Shown piece by piece: positions 17,362 to 38,797 of a stretch of 39,002 bases of DNA. The first letter of the stretch is position 1; each line of letters begins with the position of its first letter. A program made the position numbers and the translations under genes. The stretch is taken from assembly GCA_025355325.1 (NCBI GenBank), contig JANXZX010000014.1:1-39002 (forward strand), written 5' to 3'. The notes under the pieces are model-generated. The model did no database searches. It was not told the origin of the DNA and worked only from the letters and a program-made list of their open reading frames with translations. This DNA is from Geobacteraceae bacterium (GTDB lineage: Bacteria; Desulfobacterota; Desulfuromonadia; Geobacterales; Pseudopelobacteraceae).

Positions 17362-17401
17362 TAAATCAAGTTTTCACACAAATTAACTCAACATACATAT
17401 T

Positions 17402-17504
17402 CTTATCGAGAGCGACTGAGGGACTGGCCCTGTGACGTCGCGGCAACCAGCCTTTGGGCAAGGTGCCAATTCCAGCGAAATCGCATGCGGTTTCGGGAGA
17501 TAAG
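17402..17504 (+). promoter_or_regulatory. SAM-I (S-box) riboswitch aptamer
   Basis: The S-box consensus is present in order: CTTATCGAGAG, then GGGACTGGCCC, GGCAACC, AAGGTGCCAATTCC, and the closing GATAAG. P1 pairs CTTATC (17402-17407) with GATAAG (17499-17504). SAM binding stabilises P1 and lets the downstream terminator form, so the operon should be switched off when methionine/SAM is plentiful. Confidence 0.95.
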
Positions 17505-17560
17505 GAAGAGCGCCGCATTTATAGATCCTCTTCCGCACCCCGGAAGGGGATTTATTTTTT
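17504..17560 (+). terminator. Riboswitch expression platform: antiterminator and intrinsic terminator
   Basis: An 11-bp perfect stem (17525-17535 with 17541-17551) closes a CACCC loop and is followed by TTATTTTTT. The competing antiterminator pairs GGAAGAG (17504-17510), which follows directly on the aptamer's P1 3' arm, with CTCTTCC (17528-17534) inside the terminator's 5' arm. This is a standard transcriptional OFF switch. The ribosome site GGAGG of the first gene lies just after the U-tract. Confidence 0.9.
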
Positions 17561-17570
17561 GGAGGTCATC

Positions 17571-18707
17571 ATGAACATCGCAACTCAGGCAGTACAAATC
17601 GGACTCGAATGGGATACCCGTACCGGAGCGGTCACCGTACCGGTCTACCAGACCGCCACCTTCAGACACCCTGGACTCGGCCAAAGCACCGGCTATGACT
17701 ATAGTCGCTCATGCAACCCGACCCGCCAGGCACTTGAAGACGGCATCGCACGGCTGGATGGCGCGGCACGCGGTTTTGCCTATTCATCGGGGATGGCTGC
17801 AATCACCAATCTGCTGATGCTGTTTACATCCGGGGATCACCTGATCGTAACGGAAGACCTCTACGGCGGCACCTGCCGCCTGTTTGACAAAATTTTCACC
17901 CAATACGGCCTTACTTTCACATACGTCGATACCTGCGACATTGCCGCAGTAACTGCTGCCATACAACCATCAACCAAGGGCGTATTTGTGGAAACTCTCA
18001 CCAATCCGCTCCTTAAGTTTACTGATCTAACGGCCGTTTCCGCCATTTGCAAAGCAAACAACCTGCTGCTGATTGCCGACAACACGTTCCTGACCCCCTA
18101 TCTGCTCCGTCCGCTCGACCTGGGCGCAGATATTGCCGTCTACAGCGCAACCAAGTATCTGGCCGGACATAATGATACCGTCTCCGGTCTGGTTACCGTT
18201 AAAGACCCGCAGCTCGCTGAAAAAGTGTATTTTCACCAGAACTCTGTCGGTGCTGTGCTGGGGCCGCAGGATTCCTGGCTGACCATTCGGGGCATCAAGA
18301 CCCTCGGCATACGTATGGATCGCCAGCAGGAAAATGCCGGGCTAATCGCTGAATGGCTGGCTGCCCACCCCCGCATAACAAAAGTATATTATCCCGGTCT
18401 GGACAGTCATCCCGACCACGACCTGATGAAGCGTCAGTCACGCGGTTTTTGCGCTATGATATCTTTTGAAGTTGACAAGCACGAGCTGGTCGAACAAATT
18501 CTTCTAAAAACTAACCTGATCTCTTTTGCCGAAAGCCTCGGAGGAGTTGAAAGCCTGATGACCTTCCCCGAAGTGCAGACTCACGCCGACATCCCGCCTG
18601 AACTGCGGGCCAGACTCGGCATTAATAACGTCCTGCTGCGCCTTTCGGTCGGGATTGAAGATTGCGATGACCTGATCGAAGATCTGCGTCAGGCCCTGGA
18701 GGGATGA
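17571..18707 (+). CDS. Trans-sulfuration PLP enzyme (cystathionine gamma-synthase / O-acetylhomoserine thiolyase type)
   Basis: This 378-residue protein of the Cys/Met metabolism PLP family has YDYSRSCNPTRQALE and YSSGMAAITNLLML near the start. LIADNTFLTPYLLRPLDLGAD precedes the PLP lysine in YSATKYLAGHND (about residue 197). The C-terminal part contains FAESLGGVESLMTFP and LRLSVGIEDCDDL. The start ATG follows GGAGG just after the riboswitch terminator. Members make cystathionine or homocysteine from acylated homoserine, or split cystathionine; sequence alone rarely decides which. The first place in a SAM-riboswitch operon ahead of a paralogue matches Bacillus metI-metC, so a synthase role is the best guess. 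Confidence 0.85.
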   Translation: MNIATQAVQIGLEWDTRTGAVTVPVYQTATFRHPGLGQSTGYDYSRSCNPTRQALEDGIARLDGAARGFAYSSGMAAITNLLMLFTSGDHLIVTEDLYGGTCRLFDKIFTQYGLTFTYVDTCDIAAVTAAIQPSTKGVFVETLTNPLLKFTDLTAVSAICKANNLLLIADNTFLTPYLLRPLDLGADIAVYSATKYLAGHNDTVSGLVTVKDPQLAEKVYFHQNSVGAVLGPQDSWLTIRGIKTLGIRMDRQQENAGLIAEWLAAHPRITKVYYPGLDSHPDHDLMKRQSRGFCAMISFEVDKHELVEQILLKTNLISFAESLGGVESLMTFPEVQTHADIPPELRARLGINNVLLRLSVGIEDCDDLIEDLRQALEG

Positions 18708-27425: not shown

Positions 27426-28130
27426 TTACCGCCACACCTCATCCGTATACTCCCCATCCATATCCCTGACAAACAACGGCGGTTCCACTACCGGCGCGGT
27501 GCGGCGCCCCTTGGCGAGTTCAGCCATAAACATGGTTGCCGGTGACGCAGCATTACTGTGAATCATCCGCACCCGCAGCACGGATAATTTCATCTGGGCA
27601 GCCAACGCCATGAATTCATGCAGACGCGACGGAAGCTGGATGAAGCAGATCTTCCCTGACGGTTTTACCAGATATTTCGCGGCAGCCATAAAATCGGCAA
27701 GCCCAGCAGTAGTTTCATGGCGGGCGGCATCGCGTCCGGCCTTGGGGCTGATTTTTCCTGTTCCCGGCTTTCGAAAGGGAGGATTGGAAGCTACGAGATC
27801 GAACGAAGAATCAGGATAGCTTTTTGATAGATTAATCACATCTTCGGCATGCACAGACACTCTTTCGTTAAGACCATTGTGCTGAATATTCTGCTCAACA
27901 AGCGCCGCCATTTCCGGATTATTTTCAACCGCCACCACCGAAGAATCAGGGTTGATACGAGCCAGCACCAGGGCAATAATTCCGCATCCGGCACCCAGAT
28001 CGGCTATTCTGCCACCGGAAGGAGGCTGACCACAGAAACGAGACAGTAGCAGAGGATCAAGCGAATAGCGGTAGCCGAGACGCGGCTGGAACAGTTGTAG
28101 GTCAAATCGTTTGAGATCATCTTGCGTCAA
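27426..28130 (-). CDS. tRNA1(Val) (adenine37-N6)-methyltransferase-like protein
   Basis: This 234-residue class I methyltransferase has FQPRLGYRYSLDPLLLSRF at the start, the motif typical of TrmN6/YfiC. The SAM-binding loop IADLGAGCGIIALVLA follows at about residue 42, then the acidic VAVENNPEMAALVEQN. The catalytic NPPF motif in DLVASNPPFRKPG is characteristic of enzymes that methylate an amino group on adenine. The likely job is N6-methylation of adenine 37 in tRNA1(Val). The frame begins at TTG 28130; no in-frame ATG lies near. It follows the polysaccharide cluster on the same strand but is probably unrelated to it. Confidence 0.85.
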   Translation of the reverse strand: MTQDDLKRFDLQLFQPRLGYRYSLDPLLLSRFCGQPPSGGRIADLGAGCGIIALVLARINPDSSVVAVENNPEMAALVEQNIQHNGLNERVSVHAEDVINLSKSYPDSSFDLVASNPPFRKPGTGKISPKAGRDAARHETTAGLADFMAAAKYLVKPSGKICFIQLPSRLHEFMALAAQMKLSVLRVRMIHSNAASPATMFMAELAKGRRTAPVVEPPLFVRDMDGEYTDEVWR

Positions 28131-28185
28131 AATATCACCATGTCAAGCTTTCGTCACGTAAGGCTACTCAATTTCAATAAGACAA

Positions 28186-28950
28186 TCATTTTTTGTGGTA
28201 ATCACCACGCGATAGATATTTTTCCAGCCAGATGTACAGACAGATAAACAGGTAACGACTACCCATCTCCTTGATTTTGAGTTTTGCCTCTCCTGTTGTG
28301 CGGTTTCGCCAGGTGATAGGAATCACCGTCCAACTGAAACCGCGAACAATTGCCTTTAAAGGAATCTCAACCGTAAGGTTGAAATGGGGGGCAATCAAGG
28401 GCCGACAACCGTCAATAACCTCGCGACGATACGCTTTGAAAGCATTGGTGGTATCGTTGAGCCTGATGCCAAAAAAAACCTGAAGAAACTTGTTGGCCAG
28501 ACGGTTTATGATCAACTTTATCCGGGGATAATCGACAGTCCCGCCGCCTTTAATGAAACGGCTGCCGAACACGCAGTCATACCCCTTGCCCAGTTCCTGC
28601 CAGTAGCGCACCGCATCCCTGGCATCGTCAGATTCATCAGCCATCATGATCACTACAGCATCACCGCTCATGTTGTCGAGCCCACAGATGATAGCTCTGC
28701 CAAAGCCGTGACGACCGGTATTCTGTACCGGTTTCAACTCCGATATCTGCTGTCGGAGGCTCTGTAAAAGCGGCCATGTTTCGTCACTGCTGCCGTCATC
28801 AACTACCACGATTTCGTGAGGAATGTTGTTTCGATGGAGCTCTTCGTGCAGTTGTTCAACCATCGAACAGATACATCCCTCTTCGTCACGGGCAGGGATC
28901 ACTACAGAGAGCAGCTCAAGTGTTTTTTTGCCTGACTCCGCTGCACTCAT
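28186..28950 (-). CDS. Family 2 glycosyltransferase (dolichyl-phosphate-mannose synthase type)
   Basis: This 254-residue protein starts at ATG 28950, which shares one base with the stop of the upstream epimerase. GT-A features are SVVIPARDEEGCI, the nucleotide-binding VVVDDGSSDETW (about residue 50) and the acidic metal site MMADESDD. FGSRFIKGGG and NDTTNAFKAYRREV then match the DPM1/GtrB-like subgroup. It has no C-terminal membrane pair, so it probably transfers a sugar to a lipid carrier at the inner face of the membrane. It is the last gene of the leftward polysaccharide cluster. A longer upstream frame overlaps the epimerase and is rejected. Confidence 0.9.
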   Translation of the reverse strand: MSAAESGKKTLELLSVVIPARDEEGCICSMVEQLHEELHRNNIPHEIVVVDDGSSDETWPLLQSLRQQISELKPVQNTGRHGFGRAIICGLDNMSGDAVVIMMADESDDARDAVRYWQELGKGYDCVFGSRFIKGGGTVDYPRIKLIINRLANKFLQVFFGIRLNDTTNAFKAYRREVIDGCRPLIAPHFNLTVEIPLKAIVRGFSWTVIPITWRNRTTGEAKLKIKEMGSRYLFICLYIWLEKYLSRGDYHKK

Positions 28951-30014
28951 TATAACCCCGACAATTCCAGCCAGGCCGGATGCTGCGCGGCATGAAGTGC
29001 TATTTCGTCGAGTATTTCGCAAAGTGTGGTTTGCGGCTCCCAACTCCAGGTTTTCCTCGCCAGCGAGGCATCCATGACCATCCAGGGTATGTCGAAGCGG
29101 CGCATCTCAAGGTTGGCAGCAACTGAATGTGTGCCAAACCGGTCATGACACCAACTGCTCACTTCAGCCAGTGACATGGCATTATTGACGCCGCCGCCGA
29201 AATTCATAACCCTCTGGTTACCGGAAGGAGCCTCCATCTGCTTGCGCAGCAGCGGAATCAGATCACGGGGATGCAGGCCATCTCTTACCTGATAGCCATT
29301 GCCACCAAATCCAATGTAGGTCAGTGGTTTGCGCCTCAACCAGGAATTTATCCAGAAGGCAAAGATCCCCTGGTCAGGGCGTCCAAACTGTCCGGCTCCG
29401 GCCAGAACACCACAGCGATTGATCCAAACCGGAAAACCAAAGGTATCGCCATATTCGAGAGCCAGCACTTCGGAAGCCAGTTTGGTACTGCCGTAGAGGG
29501 AAATAGGAGGAGTCGTGCTGAAGGATTCAGCAACGCCTGCAGCGGATAATCCTTCCGGAAAAATCTGGTCTTCCTTCAGGCTGAAAGCCTCCCCCAAAAC
29601 CTCGACTTCTGCTGTCGCCAGCGGCGCTATCGAATAAACACGACTGGTACTGATCAGGATAAATCCCGCATGATGACGCTTGCAGTACTCCAGAATATTA
29701 ACCGTACCCAGCAGGTTATGCTCGACCAACTGCCTGCTGCTGGTCTGACCGTCGATACCCGCCAGCACACTCGGGTTGGCCGCGGCGTCGATCACCCAAT
29801 CCACAGCCGGCAGTGCGTCAAAATCAGACGCCATGCGGATATCACCATGAAAGAGTTTGATCCCCTGCTTTTGCAACGAATTACGGTTATGTTCGCTGCC
29901 CGGTCGAATGAAGTTATCCAAACCAAACAGCTGCACCCCCGGCAGGGATTCCAGCAGCGAAGAAGCCAGGGAACTCCCCACAAAACCGCAGATACCGGTA
30001 ATCAGTATTTTCAT
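28950..30014 (-). CDS. NAD-dependent nucleotide-sugar epimerase/dehydratase
   Basis: This 354-residue extended SDR enzyme starts at ATG 30014, overlapping the upstream stop as ATGA. The intact Rossmann start is [32 protein letters not shown] matches the CDP-paratose/tyvelose epimerase subgroup, and the catalytic pair is in [13 protein letters not shown] (Tyr and Lys). [18 protein letters not shown] and [13 protein letters not shown] follow. It interconverts a nucleotide sugar; the exact sugar is not determinable. The upstream gene encodes a second epimerase of the same broad group with a missing N-terminus, so this may be the only fully active one. Confidence 0.88.
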
Positions 30015-31588
30015 GACACCAGCCGCTCCTGCCATGATTCCACAATCTCTTTCACTGTCTGTGTCAGCGACTTGGTAATATCCCATCCCGGATAATGGGT
30101 CTTCATCTTGGACAGGTCACTGTAATAACAGATATGGTCACCAATGCGGTTTTCATCAACATAGGTGTAGACCTGCTTCTTGCCGCTGAACTGCTCGGCC
30201 AGATCAAACGCTTCAAGTATCGAGCAGGAGTTCCCCTTGCCCCCGCCAAGATTGTAGACTTCGCCGCAACGGGGACTCTTGTAGAAGGCATGTATAAAAC
30301 GAGCAACATCTTCGGAGTGGATATTGTCGCGCACCTGCTTGCCTTTGTAACCGAATACCCGGTATTCGCGCCCTTCGAGGTTGCACTTAACCAAATAGCT
30401 GAGAAAACCGTGCAGTTCAACCCCGGCGTGATTCGGGCCGGTCAGACACCCCCCTCTCAGGCAGCAGGTCGGCATATTAAAGTACCGGCCATACTCCTGA
30501 ACCATAATATCGCCAGCAACCTTGGAGGCCCCGAATAGTGAGTGTTTGGACTGATCAATGGAGAAGGTTTCGGCAATACCGTTTTCATATGCAGGATCAT
30601 CATAATCCCAGCGCGTTGCCAGCTCTTTCAGCGGAATCGTGTTGGGCAGATCACCGTACACTTTGTTAGTGGAGAGATGAATGAAGGGCGATTCAGGACA
30701 TGCCTGACGGGCGGCTTCCAACAGATTGAGTGTGCCGACGGCATTGGTGTCGAAATCGTCGAACGGGATAGCAGCAGCCCGGTCATGGGAAGGTTGGGCG
30801 GCGGTATGGATAATGCCGTCCGGTTTCAGCTCTTTAACCAGGGCAAGAACACCCTGGCGATCACGGATACCCCATGGATGAAGCGTAGGGTAGTAATCCA
30901 CAAATATCATACTGACAGTAAACCCCGAAACACATGCCGATCCTAGTATCACGTTGCCATATATTTTTGCATTTGGGGTTACGTCAAACAAAGATTGACG
31001 CCCACCTCTGAAGATCAAATATGGGATTATTACCAGTGCGGGAATAACACCATTCATACCACATAAAGGTAATAGGACAGTTGTTACAGCCATAGCAAAT
31101 GCCGACAATCCAACTATAGAGGCTTCATACCTTAATTGATTGTAAACAATCGAACTTAGGAACAGGCACAGCAAAATAGTTGATGAGGCAAACTGGATAT
31201 GAAAGCCCCAAGCGTGATAACCCATCACAGTGCTAAGCAAAAGCATTGGAAAACATAATAGGAAAAACAGAGAATAGTTTCGGTATTTTTGTGAAACGCT
31301 CATCATAATTAAAGAGGTTAAGCCCATTAATACCGTAATAACAAGGATTGGAAACCTGAAATCAGGCCATGCCTTAAATGAGAACATATAGAACAACTTT
31401 GGAATTACAATTCGATGTTCATTATGTTGCGCCCATAGCCATTTTACCGAAACATGAGTATCGCCGGTGAGCATGGGTACAAAGTCCCATTCATCCGACC
31501 AGGGATAACGAATTCCTTGGGCAAAATCGAGGTAAAGACTAATAGCAATAAGCATAAAACAAAATATAAATGGGAAACGTTTAGTCAT
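30011..31588 (-). CDS. Chimera: polytopic membrane protein fused to an NAD-epimerase lacking its Rossmann start
   Basis: The single 525-residue frame joins two unlike halves. Residues 1 to about 230 form about seven membrane helices with [15 protein letters not shown] and [17 protein letters not shown], resembling membrane proteins of O-antigen clusters. From about residue 235 it is a CDP-tyvelose/paratose-type epimerase: [94 protein letters not shown]. The usual first 70 or so residues of that enzyme, including GxxGxxG, are absent. The first half uses AT-richer codons than the second. A recombination or deletion joining two genes at about 30,870-30,905 is the best explanation. Enzyme activity is doubtful. 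The frame overlaps the GT9 gene by eight bases. Confidence 0.85.
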
Positions 31589-32627
31589 CGTTTTTTATCA
31601 ACATTTTAGTATTCACTATGCCAAAGACCTCATCTACGGATATATCGGCTGCTGGCCCATTTGAGTAAATAATCTTGGCATTTTCCCCTGATTTATAGCT
31701 GCCGCTGTACGGCATATAATGCTTAAATATTCTGTATTCACCGAGAAGAATTACTCCGAAAGTGCCTACTGCATTAGCCATATGTGCCGGGCCACTGTCA
31801 ATCCCGATAAATAACTCCGCACGCCTGATAATTTCTGCGGTTTCAAGCAGAGACAATGTGCCGCACTGGTTAATATAATGGTCGGTCTGGAAATCAAGCA
31901 CCGACTGTAATCCAATTTCGACAACATGAAGGTCAAAGTAACGCATTATTTTTTGTGCAAGCTGCCGCCATTTCTCTTGTGACCAGTCTCGACACTGTTC
32001 ATTGGACGAGCAATGGGCAACGACGTAACGTTCCGGCAACCTGAGTAGATCGATACGCTGGATGACATCACGAGGAATATATATCTGCGGTTGATCCTCT
32101 ATGACAGAAATCCCCGCACTCTGGCAATAAGCCGCCAGCAAGCAGTCGTAATTGTAGTAGTTTTCAACGGTAATGTCAGTATTACCGGTGCTCTTCAGTA
32201 ACGGTGTACGACAAACCGGGCATTCACGATTCTGCGGGTGAAGATCAATAATTTCATCAAAAAGCCCGGATGCGGCAAGATAGATCCATTCGCTCAAGCA
32301 ATTGAGAACAAAGACCTCGTCAATTGCCGGGTTATGAATGACAAGTTCGCGATATGGCTTTTTAACCGTCCAGATTATGTACGCATCAGGATATCGGCTC
32401 CGCACGTACCGGGCAACCGGTTCACACGCCACAATGTCGCCAAAATGCTCAATGAGGTTAATGACAATGAACTTGCGTTCAGGCGTTTCCATTTTCACAT
32501 GGTGACGCCTCAGTAAGAGATGAACGTATGCTTTAAGAAACGACAGGAATGCCATCACCTTATGAAAATATGGCAGAATCCCTTTAACGTATTTCACTCT
32601 GTGCCAGTTAATTTTCAAAACGACCAC
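31581..32627 (-). CDS. Family 9 glycosyltransferase (heptosyltransferase-like)
   Basis: This 348-residue GT-B enzyme has [30 protein letters not shown] (about residue 53), then [27 protein letters not shown]. The diagnostic [17 protein letters not shown], the donor-binding block of GT9 enzymes, lies at about residue 277. A pair of cysteines in ECPVCRTP is unusual for the family. GT9 enzymes add heptose or related sugars to lipopolysaccharide. The start appears to be GTG 32627, two bases after the stop of the upstream methyltransferase. It overlaps the chimeric gene by eight bases. Confidence 0.88.
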
Positions 32628-32628
32628 A

Positions 32629-33294
32629 TTAGAGTTGCTTCCTGACTATGCACTGAATCTGCGCAAGAACACCGGGACGTGATGTTTGATCAACCGGATG
32701 GAAATGGCTTCGCACTATCTCCATTGACTGAAGCCGAATCGTAGTCAATTTATTCAACCATCGGTATCCTTTCAGCAGCAGGCGCGTCTCCATGGAAAGT
32801 TTTTCACCCCCCCTGCACTGGATGCTTCTGTCATAGCCATGATCCTGAAGGGCAACACTTACTAACTGCGATTGGGGCAATGATTGAACGAGCTCAAGAA
32901 TATTTATTGATACCGGTGACCAGCTCTGTGCTTTCGAGATAGTAAATGTAGTTTTATGATCCGCATTGAATCTGCTTGGAAAAACACCTTGTTCATAAAG
33001 ATCTTCATCGGGCACGATCAGAAAAAGGTGACCACCCGGTTTTACCAGTTGCCACCACTCCTGCACTGTATTCTTTGGGTTGTGCATATGCTCAAGACAG
33101 TGCGAAGAATAGACAAAATCAAAGGTATCGTTAACAAAACGCAGAATATCGTTCGCATCGCCATCTTCAATATCAAATTTCCGGGCGTTAGAACTAACCG
33201 GATCCGGACCGCAACCAATATCGATCCCTTTTCCCACAAGGATAGATTCTTCAAATGATGTCCAGATGCTCTTGGTTTTCGATGTTTCATCCAT
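32629..33294 (-). CDS. SAM-dependent methyltransferase (class I)
   Basis: This 221-residue protein has a SAM-binding loop GIDIGCGPDPV (about residue 24), the acidic FDIEDGDAN, then FDFVYSSHCLEHMHNPKNTVQEWWQLVKPGGHLFLIVPDEDLYEQGVFPS. The CLEHM/VKPGG spacing is that of methyltransferase-11 type enzymes found in polysaccharide clusters. It probably methylates a sugar of the surface polysaccharide or a lipid-linked intermediate. ATG 33294 follows AAAGG. Confidence 0.85.
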   Translation of the reverse strand: MDETSKTKSIWTSFEESILVGKGIDIGCGPDPVSSNARKFDIEDGDANDILRFVNDTFDFVYSSHCLEHMHNPKNTVQEWWQLVKPGGHLFLIVPDEDLYEQGVFPSRFNADHKTTFTISKAQSWSPVSINILELVQSLPQSQLVSVALQDHGYDRSIQCRGGEKLSMETRLLLKGYRWLNKLTTIRLQSMEIVRSHFHPVDQTSRPGVLAQIQCIVRKQL

Positions 33295-33328
33295 GGTAAT
33301 GACAGCCTTTCATCAATTTATGGAAATG

Positions 33329-34855
33329 CTACCTGAATTTATTAAGAGGGTTAAGCCGGGCGAGCGTTAATCGGTCAAACTGATCAAAATAACTCCCTTT
33401 CAACATTACAAAAGAGATAATTGCAAAATATGCTGCGGACATAAGAACTAATATGAAATACCCTCTCAAGGGCATTACAACATCCAGCATGGTTAGTACG
33501 GAGCAGAGAACTATCGATAAAATGATGGGCTTCGTATATATTTCTGCATACAAACGCCAGCGTAACCCCTGAATGTTTTTATGTACCATAAAAGTAAACG
33601 TGATTGTGGAAATCACGACAGTTGACAGAATTCCTATGATAACCCCGTAGTAGCCCATCTGCTGCACAAGAACAAAGCACAATACAAGATTAGCAATTCC
33701 GGTACCGATTGAATTCAGCATAGGTACATGGGGCTTGTTCATCCCATGCAAGATCATGTTTCCCGGCCCTGGCAGAAGGTTGATCATATAAGCCAGCATA
33801 AGAAGCTGCATGGTATAGGCGCTTGTTGTATATCCCTCGCCAAGCCACGTTCTGACAAACGGGTGCGCCAAGGCAATAATGAGAGCGGAAAACGGGATGG
33901 CCGCCACAGCCATATATTTCATTGACCTGTTATAAAGGCCGCGCAGTTTGTCGAATTCATCGGTCGCCTGCAGCGATGAAGCGGCAGGAACCATCGGCGT
34001 AAACACCGACGCAATGAATACCCTCGCCTGAGTTACTATGCGGTTGGCGACTTCATAATTGCTGACTGCGCCCAACCCCAGAAAATGGCTTATCAAAACA
34101 CGGTCAAGCTGATAGACAAGCAGATTTGAAATAGATGATAGCTGAACTTTCCAACTGAAACCAAATATCAGCTTCAAGGTCTCTCTGCTGAAATATCTGA
34201 AGGGATTCAAGCGCATTTGCGGGAACAGACGCCAGGCAACGACCGAGTTGGCAATAATGACGAAAATTGTGATGAGCGCATTATTGTAAATCAACCCTTC
34301 AAGGCCGAAACCCTGTGACAGAGCAATAAATGTTCCGCAGGCCATTATGATAGTCGATATGAATGAGATAAGGCTGCTGTATCCCATACGTTGAAAGCCG
34401 GTAATCAATGAACCAAAAACGCTCATTGTCATATTTACAAAAAAGAGGCTGATGGCAATAGTAAATACGTAGTTTGTCTTTTTTGAAAGTTCGGGTGGAA
34501 TACTCAGAATGGTTGTGATGATAAATGGCAATACAAGCAGGCCAATTACAAAACAGACCAGACTTATGCCTACATAGGTGACAAAAGCGGTATTGATGAG
34601 CCTGTTAAGCTGGTGGTGATCGTTTCTGGCCTTAAATTCAGCCACAAATTTTATTAAACTATCTGTTATTCCAAAATCACTTAATTGGGCATAGGATGAG
34701 ATCACTCCTACTAACGCCCATATTCCAAATTCTTCCTTCCCCACATGTTTTATAATGAATGGGGTAATAAAAATAATTATTGGAATAGTGAGTAACGTTC
34801 GAGAAAAATTGAAAATCGAGTTTTTTGCAATTCTTGAACCTACTTCTGAACTCAA
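33329..34855 (-). CDS. Wzx-like polysaccharide flippase
   Basis: This 508-residue protein has about 12-14 membrane helices along its whole length and no large soluble domain. The opening (SRTLLTIPIIIFITPFIIKHVGKEEFGIWALVGVISSYAQLSDFGITDSLIKFVAEF) matches the PST/MATE-like flippases that move lipid-linked O-antigen units across the inner membrane. The start is TTG 34855 with GGAG six bases upstream. It is the transport gene of the cluster. No Wzy polymerase or ligase is recognised within the window. Confidence 0.9.
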   Translation of the reverse strand: MSSEVGSRIAKNSIFNFSRTLLTIPIIIFITPFIIKHVGKEEFGIWALVGVISSYAQLSDFGITDSLIKFVAEFKARNDHHQLNRLINTAFVTYVGISLVCFVIGLLVLPFIITTILSIPPELSKKTNYVFTIAISLFFVNMTMSVFGSLITGFQRMGYSSLISFISTIIMACGTFIALSQGFGLEGLIYNNALITIFVIIANSVVAWRLFPQMRLNPFRYFSRETLKLIFGFSWKVQLSSISNLLVYQLDRVLISHFLGLGAVSNYEVANRIVTQARVFIASVFTPMVPAASSLQATDEFDKLRGLYNRSMKYMAVAAIPFSALIIALAHPFVRTWLGEGYTTSAYTMQLLMLAYMINLLPGPGNMILHGMNKPHVPMLNSIGTGIANLVLCFVLVQQMGYYGVIIGILSTVVISTITFTFMVHKNIQGLRWRLYAEIYTKPIILSIVLCSVLTMLDVVMPLRGYFILVLMSAAYFAIISFVMLKGSYFDQFDRLTLARLNPLNKFR

Positions 34856-34879
34856 ACTTTGCTCCTATCCTTCAGATGC

Positions 34880-35770
34880 CTATTTTGAATCTTTTGGTAA
34901 CACGTTATTGCACTGGTCAATCATAAGCTTCTTCACATATTCGATGTCTTTTTGAGTGAGCGAAGGCGGAAAATGAATCATAGGATTAACCATGGCATTA
35001 TATATCTTATCAATACCGCCAACAAGTTTGTTCCTGAGTTTATGACAACTGTTTAAATTGTACTTTTGAGTAAATTCAATGCCGGCAATCTTCTTTTTTG
35101 AAAAAAGATGAGTGTCGATATTGTTGGTGTAATAGTAGCAATTATATCTATCTGCAATAATCTTTAGAGACTTCGCAGAATAAAAAGATATGTGCTGACC
35201 ATTGTACTCACCAAGATACCACCAGTCCTTTAGTAGATCTGATGGGACAGTATCATTTATATATGTAGTAAACAGCAGGTTGTCGCTCAATGATAACATT
35301 CCGGATATTTCTTCAAGGGGATTCTCGAAATGTTCAATTGCCTCTATGCTTGTCATTAATTCAAAGCGTTCAGTTTTATCCGCTATATCTGACAAATCAA
35401 AGCCGATGGAATAGACGTTCCCGGCATATTTATCATATCGGAAGAAATTAAATCCCTTATCACGCATCATCCGGACAAACACACCGTTGCCGCCGCCATA
35501 ATCAAGAAAAGTCCCAAACGGATCAAACCACTTCATTATTATGCCTTCAGCAACCCTGCTGAAATTCATAGGTCTCATTATGAGACCGGTGTCGGTTGCA
35601 GAGAGCGGCGCCGAATAGGCTTCCTGAATCCAGTAAGGGTCTTCTGTTTGCATAAATCCGCAATTTGTACATCTATAATATGAGACGTTATACTTGAATA
35701 GTACGTTTTTTTTGAATACGAAGACTGACGAACCACCACATATTTTACATTCGACTTCAGTCAAACTCAT
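34880..35770 (-). CDS. SAM-dependent methyltransferase with N-terminal zinc-type Cys4 motif
   Basis: This 296-residue protein starts at ATG 35770, which has AGGG six bases upstream; ATG 35812 has no ribosome site. An N-terminal pair of CxxC motifs (CKICGG and CTNCGF) probably binds zinc. The methyltransferase core has TFLDYGGGNGVFVRMMRDKGF (about residue 86), FELMTSIEAIEHFENPLEE and a late NGQHISFYSAKSL. The layout resembles sugar C- or O-methyltransferases of nucleotide-sugar pathways. AT-rich codon use compared with flanking genes suggests the cluster core was acquired. Confidence 0.85.
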   Translation of the reverse strand: MSLTEVECKICGGSSVFVFKKNVLFKYNVSYYRCTNCGFMQTEDPYWIQEAYSAPLSATDTGLIMRPMNFSRVAEGIIMKWFDPFGTFLDYGGGNGVFVRMMRDKGFNFFRYDKYAGNVYSIGFDLSDIADKTERFELMTSIEAIEHFENPLEEISGMLSLSDNLLFTTYINDTVPSDLLKDWWYLGEYNGQHISFYSAKSLKIIADRYNCYYYTNNIDTHLFSKKKIAGIEFTQKYNLNSCHKLRNKLVGGIDKIYNAMVNPMIHFPPSLTQKDIEYVKKLMIDQCNNVLPKDSK

Positions 35771-35829
35771 AAATTGCCCTGTATCCCTTTGTAACTTAAA
35801 TCTTACATCCATAGCATAAAAACAGCCGT

Positions 35830-36320
35830 TTAGGGTTCCGCAACGCCTGCAGCAAAAATCCTGCTTCCTGCTACTCCTAAACCATGAAGTACCCGTTCGA
35901 GTTCATCCCGCCGTTTCAGCGAAGTAATCACCACCGGAGTGCCAATACTACTTAATCCCTCTACAACCGTCACTACAGGTACTCCGAAAAACAGCTCCCC
36001 CTGCCGTCCATCATCCATAACCGCTACCAGCTTAAGCCCGGTCTCTTGCAACGACAAATAGGCCACCTCAGCCACCTCGTCCACTCCGCAAAAAACAACC
36101 TCCCGCACTCCGGCACCCTCCAATCGGCGAAACAGCTCAAGGTAATCCTGCCGCGCCACAGTGTAGAGACTGGTAAAATAACTGAGGTGCTGATAGGCAA
36201 GCCGAATATTTTCAGCGATGCCTTGCGCGGGGTAAGCAAATATGCGTAACGGTTACTGGGGAAATCTTTAACCCACACGAACCCTTTTGATACTAGATTT
36301 TTTAGTTAGGAATTGACCAG
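35830..36320 (-). pseudogene. Degraded copy of the winged-helix/Rossmann regulator (duplicate of 38153-38797)
   Basis: This is a near copy of the intact regulator at 38153-38797, clearly alignable base by base. It is truncated at its 5' side within the second helix of the winged helix (at about 36320), has TAA in place of the Tyr codon just after, and carries two extra bases near 36225-36231 (LTPQGIAE became LTPRKAS). The 3' part still reads as 109 residues (QDYLELFRRLEGAGVREVVFCGVDEVAEVAYLSLQ... to VAEP). It cannot make a DNA-binding protein. The break point touches the truncated HEPN frame at 36306-36341. Confidence 0.88.
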
Positions 36321-36341
36321 AACCAGCTCTCGATCAAACAT
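36306..36341 (-). pseudogene. Truncated HEPN-domain partner of the MNT gene
   Basis: ATG 36341 overlaps the MNT stop by eight bases, the usual coupling in MNT-HEPN pairs. It reads MFDRELVLVNS and then stops. The first eight residues resemble the start of HEPN proteins (MxDxELVxE...). The rest of the roughly 130-residue domain, including the RxxxxH ribonuclease motif, is missing. From LVNS on, the sequence belongs to the winged-helix duplicate. The assignment rests on position and a very short match. Confidence 0.5.
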
Positions 36342-36624
36342 AGATAATATCCCTCTGTATCCGACTTTTCAGTAAGCTGTTCATATTGTCACGCAGGCGA
36401 ATAACATCGACTTTAGCGCCAAACTCATCTTCAATTGTCTGCTTTATGCCTATAAGATTGAACAGGTCCGGCATATCAAGCTCTACAGCTATATCAATAT
36501 CGCTATCTGTTAAAGATTCACCACGAGCATACGATCCAAAAAGGCTAATACGGATAACGCCATACTGTTCTTTCATTTCCTGTTTATGAGACGTTAGAAA
36601 GTCGATGATATCTTTATTAGTCAT
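36334..36624 (-). CDS. MNT-type nucleotidyltransferase (MntA-like antitoxin)
   Basis: This 96-residue protein starts at ATG 36624 with GGAG five bases upstream. It is a minimal nucleotidyltransferase: ISLFGSYARGESLTDSDIDIAVEL gives the GSxxRG...DxD catalytic pattern, with a third acidic position likely in KVDVIRL. MntA proteins AMPylate the HEPN ribonuclease toxin and so neutralise it. Here the HEPN partner is cut off after 11 codons, leaving an orphan antitoxin. It lies between two copies of the winged-helix regulator. Confidence 0.88.
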   Translation of the reverse strand: MTNKDIIDFLTSHKQEMKEQYGVIRISLFGSYARGESLTDSDIDIAVELDMPDLFNLIGIKQTIEDEFGAKVDVIRLRDNMNSLLKSRIQRDIIYV

Positions 36625-36767
36625 GTCGGCTCCTTTCATCTTTCAACAGATAATGGTGAAACAACTGAGAAGCTGACAGGCAAACCGACTCTTCTCAGCC
36701 ATGCCGTGCGGCGGGAGAAAATGTGGTTGCATTGCAGCCTTTCGACAGTGAAGACCGTTGACATAGG

Positions 36768-38156
36768 TTATCCCTCTCCCCCTTCAGAGGATTCCACACT
36801 ATAATATCCACCCGTCTTTCGAGCACCGATAAATTCTATTTTATTCTCATCTTTCAGTCTTTTAAGCAAGCGCTCCAAAGTCCTTGGAGAAATATTCAAA
36901 GCAGTAGCAATCTCAATTCCTTTAATCCCAGGATGCCCTTTTATACAACTCAACACGCCATTTATCCCGCCATTTATCCCGCCATTTATCCCGCCATTTA
37001 TCCCGCCATCAAGAGAATTCAGATTTTGTTTCATCTTCTGAAAAACGACGAGAAATCCATTCGGCAATTCCTGCATAGAAAACATAACGTTTGCTGCCTC
37101 AGCAACAACCCTTCTTATCCTAGTCAGACCACTACCATATTTTTCAATTATACCAGTAAGATAAAATGCTTCTGCTATTAATTTATTTCGAAGTTCCGAT
37201 TGGTAGGCATCACTGTTTAACACCTTAATCGTCAAATTTCCATACAGCCGGCCAGGGCTGTATATAGTAATACTGTCATCAAATATCTTTATCTGGATAT
37301 CGGAAGGATTCTGATAGTCTCGATGCACAATTGCATTGGCAAGCGCTTCACGAATGGCGACCTGCGGATACTCCCACACTTCTTCTCGTTCCAAACCTGA
37401 AATTCGAAATGAAATATTAATGTGTTTAGCAATCGACTGCATCGCTTTATGAAAGGCATCGGGAAGAGTTTCTGTGATTTGGATATCATCAATAATTGTA
37501 GTTGCATCGGCAAATCTGCCAATGTGAATGTTGCAGGGAAGTGGTTCACGCGAAAACAAAAGCATCGCTGCGTTTGTTGGAGTCAAGTTCCTGATGAGAC
37601 GCAATTTCTCCAGGGCATACAGAGCATTTTCATCAAGGTGGAACCGTTCAATTCTGTTAACTTTAGCAATAAACAGCTCCAACTTGTGCGTATCAATCTG
37701 TTCTAACCGGGCTCCCGCATATTCATAAGCATCCCAGGAAAGCTGGAATGTTTTCAGATATGCATCCGCAACCTCGTTCAAAGACATGCAATGATTCGCG
37801 CCATTGAAACGTCTAAAATATTTTCCTCGACAAGCTACCGGCTTAACAGGGAAGGATGGAATTAAAAAACATACCACTTTCTTGCCATTAATATCGACCT
37901 GTGTAATGTCGGGAATAATGGATGGGGTTGTCGCCATTTTAATTTGGTTTATCCAGTTTTGAATGGTTTCCTTACCAACTGTTACGCCTTTAACTACTCT
38001 GTTATCCTGTACTCCTACAAGCAGACTACCGCCTGTGGTATTAGCAAATGCTGACAGAGTCTCAATAGCCTCTCGGTCAAAAGAAGATTTGAATTCAATG
38101 CGATCTGATTCACCTTCACGTATCAGATTGTCTATGTCCTTCACAACATTATTCAA
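36768..38156 (-). CDS. AlbA_2 (Schlafen-like) ATP-binding regulator
   Basis: This 462-residue protein starts most likely at TTG 38156, which has GGAG five bases upstream and overlaps the regulator stop as TTGA. The N-terminal AlbA_2 domain has ESDRIEFKSSFD, then FANTTGGSLLVGVQDNRVVKGV. A central ATPase_c_4-type domain has AIREALANAIVHRDY, IKIFDDSITIYSPGRL and KYGSGLTRIRR. A tandem GGIN repeat (about residues 385-400) links to a C-terminal winged helix (GIEIATALNISPRTLERLLKRLKDENKI). Proteins of this build are usually annotated as ATP-dependent transcription regulators or helicase-like; some relatives occur in defence islands. Its role here is unknown. Confidence 0.88.
   Translation of the reverse strand: MNNVVKDIDNLIREGESDRIEFKSSFDREAIETLSAFANTTGGSLLVGVQDNRVVKGVTVGKETIQNWINQIKMATTPSIIPDITQVDINGKKVVCFLIPSFPVKPVACRGKYFRRFNGANHCMSLNEVADAYLKTFQLSWDAYEYAGARLEQIDTHKLELFIAKVNRIERFHLDENALYALEKLRLIRNLTPTNAAMLLFSREPLPCNIHIGRFADATTIIDDIQITETLPDAFHKAMQSIAKHINISFRISGLEREEVWEYPQVAIREALANAIVHRDYQNPSDIQIKIFDDSITIYSPGRLYGNLTIKVLNSDAYQSELRNKLIAEAFYLTGIIEKYGSGLTRIRRVVAEAANVMFSMQELPNGFLVVFQKMKQNLNSLDGGINGGINGGINGGINGVLSCIKGHPGIKGIEIATALNISPRTLERLLKRLKDENKIEFIGARKTGGYYSVESSEGGEG
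36956..37009. repeat. Tandem 12-bp repeat within the AlbA_2 gene (GGIN linker)
   Basis: Unit CGCCATTTATCC occurs four times in perfect succession from 36956 to 37003, plus a partial unit. It encodes GGIN repeats on the minus strand. Because 12 is a multiple of 3, changes in copy number alter linker length without a frameshift. Such tracts are common in this protein family. Confidence 0.9.
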
Positions 38157-38797
38157 AATATCTCCACACAATTACCAGCAACAAAAATCCTGCCACCTGC
38201 CACGCCCAACCTCAAAAGTTCCTGAACGAGCAATTCACGGCGCTTCAGCGAAGTAATCACCACCGGAGAACCAATACTACTTAATCCCTCGACAACCGTC
38301 ACAACAGGTACTCCGAAAAACACCCCTCCTTGCTTTTCATCATCCATAACCGCTACCAGCTTAAGCCCGGTCTCCTGTAATGACAAAAATGCCACCTCCG
38401 CAACCTCATCAACCCCGCAAAAAACAACCTCCTGTACTCCGGCATCCTCCAAACGGCGAAACAAATCGAGGTAATCCTGCCGTGCAACGGTGTAGAGACT
38501 GGTGAAGTAACTGAGATGCTGATAGGCAAGCCGACTTTTTTCAGCGATTCCTTGTGGGGTAAGCAGGTATGCGTAACGGTTACTGGGGAAGTCTTTAACC
38601 CGTACATAACCTTTTGAAACGAGGTTTTTAAGATAGGAATTAACCAGGCCGACGGCGATGCCGAGGCGACGGGAAAGCTCGCGTTGCGATAGCGGTTCTT
38701 CACCGGAGATCTCGGAGAGAAGCTGGAGGGAACGGGATGAATCAAGCGGTTTTTCGATAGCATCGTTCATATTTTGAACACTACCTGATGGCTTCAT
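38153..38797 (-). CDS. Winged-helix regulator with PglD_N-like Rossmann domain
   Basis: This 214-residue protein has an N-terminal winged helix (about residues 25-75: SLQLLSEISGEEPLSQRELSRRLGIAVGLVNSYLKNLVSKGYVRV, then wing SNRYAYLLTPQG). The C-terminal domain resembles the small Rossmann fold of PglD_N/CoA-binding proteins (QEVVFCGVDEVAEVAFLSLQETGLKLVAVMDDEKQGGVFFGVPVV). It probably senses a nucleotide or sugar metabolite and controls the cluster, as the first gene in its transcription direction. The C-terminus differs from the duplicate's (NCVEIF against VAEP) because the AlbA_2 gene now begins there. Two palindromes lie at its start. Confidence 0.85.
   Translation of the reverse strand: MKPSGSVQNMNDAIEKPLDSSRSLQLLSEISGEEPLSQRELSRRLGIAVGLVNSYLKNLVSKGYVRVKDFPSNRYAYLLTPQGIAEKSRLAYQHLSYFTSLYTVARQDYLDLFRRLEDAGVQEVVFCGVDEVAEVAFLSLQETGLKLVAVMDDEKQGGVFFGVPVVTVVEGLSSIGSPVVITSLKRRELLVQELLRLGVAGGRIFVAGNCVEIF
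38765..38779. promoter_or_regulatory. Palindrome GTTCA-N5-TGAAC in the regulator's 5' coding region
   Basis: GTTCATATTTTGAAC is a perfect dyad of two 5-base arms around TATTT. A second copy lies 49 bases away (centre to centre) at 38813-38829. This is probably an autoregulatory operator for the winged-helix protein. Confidence 0.55.

Follow-up and report, generated by a model that had tools for sequence, protein, structure and literature searches.

Chimeric genes that arise by in-frame deletion between neighbouring genes are of a general kind in bacterial genomes, and by chance one deletion in three keeps the reading frame. Two protein folds bear on the chimera described here: in the SDR fold NAD is held by a GxxGxxG unit, and in the GT-C fold an acidic motif lies in the first outer loop. 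The closest described enzymes are the CDP-tyvelose 2-epimerases (TyvE), for which the published account gives an N-terminal Rossmann domain that binds NAD, a catalytic Tyr164, a VAM segment and, in TaTyvE, a Thr124-Asn125-Lys126 (TNK) segment with the catalytic Thr (PMC13098431). A term search of a further paper from the TyvE-enzyme literature gave no match (PMC7851689), and limited literature searches, for natural fusions or remnants and for Geobacter clusters, returned no report that looked pertinent.

Here we compare with these systems a frame in which a membrane protein and a TyvE-like epimerase are fused. The window, that is, the whole stretch of DNA analysed, is the entire contig C6 (39,002 bases) of draft genome G000, which comprises 4.17 Mb in 241 contigs, with a completeness of 99.84% and a contamination estimate of 3.32%. 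Its features around the fused frame are collected in Table 1.

Table 1. Fused frame and neighbouring features, in window positions
Feature	Position	Strand	Details and basis
Fused open reading frame	30011..31588	-	525 codons, ATG start, TGA stop; 100% self match, G000:C6
Front part, polytopic membrane protein N-terminus, codons 1 to about 240	30869..31588	-	homologues
Back part, TyvE-like SDR epimerase, codons 241-525	30014..30868	-	Pfam, G037 comparison
Probable deletion join, in or next to codon 240	30866..30874	.	G037 comparison
GT9 / heptosyltransferase-like gene, upstream of fused frame	31581..32627	-	orthologue 62% in G037 (same place), 72% in G050
Epimerase 2 (epi2), second SDR epimerase, intact, 354 codons from ATG	28950..30014	-	84% orthologue in G037
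GT2-family glycosyltransferase, third gene of recurrent epi1-epi2-GT2 module; start codon provisional	28186..28980	-	
Methyltransferase, collinear flank	32629..33294	-	67% G037, 80% G050
Wzx/MurJ-like flippase, collinear flank	33329..34855	-	78% G037, 81% G050
Methyltransferase-domain protein, collinear flank	34880..35812	-	64% G037

Results

Parent genes in a collinear relative

A first-pass annotation of the window had described an in-frame fusion of a membrane protein with an epimerase and had proposed that relatives be compared to find the parent genes. Both points were borne out, since the frame is a single open reading frame of 525 codons and both parents were located as separate genes in the relative G037. 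Their order and strand there are as in the fusion, and about 5.9 kb separates them; this interval carries five glycosyltransferase genes, which Pfam assigns, in order, to the WbsX-type, GT2, GT4, GT2 and GT4 glycosyltransferases. Upstream of these, contig C410 of G037 carries a 310-aa methyltransferase-domain protein (64% to the window), the flippase (78%), a methyltransferase (67%), the GT9 gene (62%) and the membrane-protein gene; downstream it continues with an intact epimerase (87%), the epimerase 2 orthologue (84%), which adjoins this intact epimerase 1, and the GT2 gene (79%). The gene order of the window is that of G037 minus the five glycosyltransferases. The fused frame shares its first 8 nt with the end of the GT9 gene, and its stop codon runs into the start codon of epimerase 2 in the form ATGA; G037 has ATGA at its GT9/membrane-gene, GT4/epimerase 1 and epimerase 1/epimerase 2 junctions.

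On the membrane side of the join G037 reads TLYPWG, and on the epimerase side it reads DIRDRQG where the window continues IRDRQG; because of these protein readings on both sides we put the join in codon 240 (30869-30871) or next to it. The G037 stretches compared with the window at this point are MIFINHHQTLYPWGHPD on the membrane side and NFRHHELDIRDRQG on the epimerase side. The two join sites lie 5,885 bases apart in G037 and share GGACATCC / GGATATCC, with 7 of 8 positions alike. This likeness was noticed by eye and without a control, and is only a hint that the deletion may have run through short homology.

We consider it highly probable that the fused frame is the scar of one in-frame deletion in a surface-polysaccharide cluster of a bacterium that has its relatives among the Geobacteraceae.

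Content of the site in a second relative

A match to the GT9 gene (E ≤1e-60) occurred in 4 of 147 genomes, namely the window's own, G037, G045, with a homologue at 47%, and G050; our comparison of the site covers G037 and G050. G050 belongs to another genus of the same family, and carries in order a MarR-type EPS regulator (77% to the window), the flippase (81%), the methyltransferase (80%) and the GT9 gene (72%). After the GT9 gene come a WbsX gene (57% to G037), a weak GT2 match (36%) and a GT4 gene (70% to G037); two or three glycosyltransferases of the G037 type are thus kept at the same site. Farther on stand homologues of the CheX-like and PPIase genes of the window (66 and 60%), and several interspersed frames match nothing in the window or in G037. 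The G050 site is without the membrane-protein gene and without epimerases.

The presence of WbsX and GT4 genes near GT9 in two genera suggests an ancestral origin of these genes, followed by their loss in the lineage of the window; glycosyltransferases at the GT9 site are thus probably ancestral. Both parents are cut at the join, and the fused state is therefore derived, whatever the ancestor held. In G021 a distant homologue of the membrane protein (32%) stands directly before the epimerase, and given this arrangement the lost piece could be shorter.

Several further features of the window lie away from the join. The stretch at 35813-36767, between the methyltransferase-domain gene and an AlbA/Schlafen-type gene, holds remnants resembling a MarR-type EPS regulator, among them a frame of 109 aa (35830-36159) that matches part of the G050 regulator at 70% identity; a short frame in the same stretch presumably encodes an MNT-like nucleotidyltransferase. 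The AlbA_2/Schlafen + HATPase_c_4 + winged-helix protein (36768-38171) adjoins a MarR-type EPS regulator at the contig end (38153-38797). A SAM riboswitch (RF00162, 91.3 bits) lies at 17400-17506, before a Cys/Met metabolism PLP enzyme. Taken from its first start (17454-18707), the frame of this enzyme begins inside the riboswitch, and the true start is probably further on.

Searches for the missing DNA and for other fusions

If the join were an assembly error, both parents would be intact in the real genome. The 6.0 kb G037 stretch, searched as DNA against the window's own draft genome, gave one 110-base match at 72%. As proteins in the same genome, WbsX reached 30% at best; the first GT4 reached 30%, with short pieces up to 35%; the second GT2 reached 32%, with short pieces up to 35%; and the second GT4 matched at 25% across most of the protein, with a piece of 77 residues at 36%. 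The first GT2 (L035 8178-9068) was sought by DNA only. These matches are other members of the glycosyltransferase families and not the missing genes; all are much lower than the 57-70% of the G050 genes. The nearest full-length epimerase, used as a query, matched the fused copy over residues 63-349 and, at 29-32%, paralogues; an intact epimerase was not found. That the intervening genes and the epimerase start were not found elsewhere in the draft speaks against a simple misassembly.

An assembly error is accordingly improbable in our view. It gains some weight from the division of the draft into 241 contigs, from the contamination estimate of 3.3% and from the fact that the join is seen in one genome only, which, together with an unobserved ancestor, also counts against a deletion. 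Against it, the join lies inside a 39-kb contig and the frame stays open; a repeat search of 28000-36800 found no repeat at the join, with a short repeat nearby at 30836-30853; and the missing pieces (one of the five genes sought by DNA only) were not found on other contigs of a draft rated 99.84% complete.

Homologues with the same two-part structure in many genomes, which would have made this an established fusion, were looked for and not found. There was no second fusion among 147 relatives (own genome included), none among 277 genomes of the class when the membrane half only was searched, and none in the best 80 of 175 epimerase loci; the three sets overlap. Long frames stand upstream at L073, L088, L124 and L125, but each of these four loci has the usual GSSGLIG or GSCGLIG start, and nothing recognisable as a membrane half. 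The whole fused protein matched 203 phage and 914 plasmid records, none of which covers at least 80% of it in one place. A phage or plasmid origin was rejected, as these collections gave no two-part match.

The membrane half

Codons 1 to about 240 of the fused frame contain six or seven hydrophobic stretches (5-23, 81-99, 105-123, 131-149, 155-194 and 212-230), of which 155-194 may be one or two spans. When it is read as two, the Lys/Arg residues at 3-4, 101-103, 153 and 194-208 fall on the same side, with the N-terminus inside and residue 240 outside; when it is read as one, residue 240 is inside. On our own reading of these stretches we favour two spans.

Neither the membrane half nor six homologues matched a Pfam family at E ≤5, the matches under curated cut-offs being weak and scattered. 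Codons 1-236 were matched in 9 of 147 genomes, own included (E ≤0.001), best in G037, with 54 and 66% identity in two pieces, and at 26-33% in the others; the class-wide search (E ≤1e-5) matched 7 of 277 genomes, again with our own among them. (The halves used as queries were cut at codon 236/237, positions 30881/30880, four codons off the join.) The distant homologues are longer polytopic membrane proteins with DEW and HNEHRI motifs. The fusion resembles them in an Asp-Glu after the first span, in HNEHRI and in HxWGF, but the frames of those examined run to 433-688 residues and only the front, about 240 residues, is kept in the fusion. The DEW motif sits in the loop after the first span, and the membrane half may resemble GT-C glycosyltransferases. 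A structure model of one longer homologue (L085), built from a two-row alignment, had a mean pLDDT of 40.8.

The membrane-protein gene of G037 (contig C410, L035 6178-6965) is itself broken independently, with an in-frame TAG at codon 30 and changes of frame, and its back half is missing ahead of the WbsX gene.

The epimerase half and its parent family

The description of the back part as a well-conserved epimerase that has lost its GxxGxxG segment was confirmed. The Pfam Epimerase profile (PF01370) matches residues 235-448 from position 44 of 240, with positions 1-43 missing, and compared with the G037 epimerase the fused copy is without the first 66 residues, GxxGxxG included. The N-terminal site reads [VI]TGS[SA]GL[IV]GS in 13 of 13 aligned intact homologues, and of the best 80 of 175 loci, 78 show a GxxGxxG pattern upstream. 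The two loci without it, L079 and L121, are cut by a contig end inside and after the motif; four of the 78 were read by eye, and the pattern of L125 proved misplaced, with the proper motif present. Because the GxxGxxG unit is gone, the means of holding NAD is lost, and the fused product should not bind NAD in the SDR manner.

Codons 237-525 were matched in 18 of 147 genomes, own included (E ≤1e-40). Sixteen relatives have an unfused epimerase, 71-90% identical across almost all of the retained length, in frames of 350-406 aa, versus an open frame of 527 aa for our own copy in this search; G024 gave a partial match at 74%. In the predicted structure of the fusion the epimerase half is mostly confident and the membrane half mostly below a pLDDT of 50. 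Through its epimerase half the prediction aligns best with 1ORR (Z 26.6, rmsd 2.8, 284 residues aligned, 27% identity). An untrimmed structural alignment placed residues from about 225 where the first strand has been lost; we do not trust this replacement, the pLDDT there being mostly below 50.

The first-pass annotation had assigned the epimerase to the CDP-tyvelose/paratose type. Its TyvE-like character stands, the solved sequences nearest to the intact parent being the CDP-tyvelose 2-epimerases 9RL0 (TaTyvE) and 1ORR (StTyvE), but the family is without the catalytic tyrosine of TyvE. In the best 80 of 175 relatives (L048-L127, some from genomes shared with the 147-genome search), the TNK segment is kept in 80 of 80 loci, and as T307 N308 K309 in the fusion, whereas the position of Tyr164 is Phe in 80 of 80. 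The SDR YxxxK pair correspondingly reads FxxxK in the fusion (F352, K356), and as Phe is found in all 80 loci it belongs to the family and was not brought about by the fusion. Where TyvE has VAM, PSH is aligned in the nearest intact homologue, and the N-terminal NAD-binding unit of TyvE is deleted in the fusion. Judged by these residues, the parent family is not plain TyvE.

The Phe-bearing loci, in this set of the best 80 of 175, come from many phyla. Of the 80 stretches, many of which are cut short by contig ends, 42 contain an SDR with at least 45% identity to epimerase 2, and in 34 of the 80 such an SDR starts no more than 2.2 kb downstream of the epimerase match. The epimerase 2-type SDRs have the catalytic Tyr in 42 of 42 and the Lys in 41 of 42. 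The Phe-bearing SDR and the Tyr-bearing epimerase 2-type SDR form a candidate non-catalytic/catalytic pair.

Decay, age and selection

Of the 16 relatives with a 71-90% copy, 13 entered the invariance test, G081, G021 and G017 having been missed by the motif filter. Aligned, the 13 intact copies agree in 143 out of 279 columns, and at each of these 143 the fused copy has the invariant residue. Ten of the 13 copies (three partners, seven outgroups) were used for relative-rate counts and seven for pairwise dN/dS; trees were built with FastTree. In 19 of the 21 comparisons unique changes were fewer in the fused copy; in the other two they were more numerous, neither result being significant; three of the 19 exceed a chi-square of 3.84, in the direction of slower change, and the comparisons are not independent. 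Against the seven relatives pS was 0.68-0.83, which places synonymous sites near saturation, so that the deletion cannot be dated by them. There is no visible decay, an outcome compatible both with a recent event and with a maintained protein, and the event may thus be recent. For the membrane part, compared with two undamaged pieces of the G037 gene, pN was 0.16 and 0.23 and pS 0.77 and 0.66, and with pN low relative to pS the gene was therefore constrained for much of its history.

These results bear on whether the chimera is maintained as a membrane-anchored protein with a new role, for example as a pseudoenzyme partner of epimerase 2 or as a coupling frame that supports it, within a widespread SDR pair whose first member is without the catalytic tyrosine and may be non-catalytic. 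We regard selection of this kind as very unlikely. The open frame, the 143 of 143 invariant columns kept, the lack of a rate increase relative to relatives and the translational overlaps kept at both ends agree with it, as does the lower pN than pS of the membrane part (G000 versus G037), a signal that may wholly predate the fusion. However, no second genome in the sets searched has the fusion, the NAD-binding start is lost, the membrane half is cut mid-protein, the epimerase half may end up in the periplasm, and the same membrane gene has been broken independently in G037. Between the two fates offered by the first-pass annotation, an inactive scar is the best reading, and a membrane-tethered protein with a new role is very unlikely, no positive evidence pointing to it.

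Base composition at the join

Base composition had been reported to change at the join, near 30,870-30,905, and it does so: the fused frame has a GC of 0.393 up to codon 240 and of 0.523 beyond it, with the join at the lower edge of that range. With the frame split at codon 236/237, GC in the window is 0.38-0.45 for the four genes before the join, 0.390 for the membrane part, 0.524 for the epimerase part and 0.538 for epimerase 2. The corresponding G037 values are 0.36-0.44 for the four upstream genes, 0.393 for the membrane gene, 0.485 for the epimerase and 0.527 for epimerase 2, and the five glycosyltransferases of G037 range from 0.421 to 0.536. Because the separate parents in G037 differ likewise, the step is inherited and therefore marks no edge of a replaced segment. 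That the join bounds a segment replaced by horizontal transfer, as the step from 0.39 to 0.52 had been taken to mean, is scarcely credible, since G037 has orthologues to either side in unchanged order and its separate parents have a like GC difference. What sets the window apart from G037 is the absence of the DNA between the parents.

Discussion

The course of events that we favour, a single in-frame deletion, would start from an ancestor with the order GT9, membrane-protein gene, several glycosyltransferases, epimerase 1, epimerase 2 and GT2. The deletion, of some 5.9 kb if the ancestor had the content of G037, would have taken out the back of the membrane gene, the glycosyltransferase genes and codons 1-66 of epimerase 1, leaving the remainder fused in frame. 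The product would have neither original function, because its SDR half is without the NAD-binding start and its membrane half without its back. With seven spans and the N-terminus inside, the epimerase part would face the periplasm. The scar could persist because the event is recent, or because overlapping, coupled translation from GT9 to epimerase 2 is kept, as a deletion that keeps the frame also keeps this chain of overlaps and one that shifts the frame would break it. The product is most likely a dead remnant.

The event is ordinary, and looks typical of a fast-changing polysaccharide cluster. It indicates that such a cluster can shed most of its glycosyltransferases in one step with downstream reading unbroken. 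When relatives are not compared, the fused frame is open to misannotation as a membrane-bound epimerase. The unfused epimerase family is a more interesting lead than the scar, and the question of the SDR pair is directly testable.

Set beside chimeras formed by in-frame deletion, the locus showed no difference and is alike in each of their features: the two genes belong to one cluster and lie on the same strand, one is truncated at its end and the other at its start, and the intervening DNA is gone.
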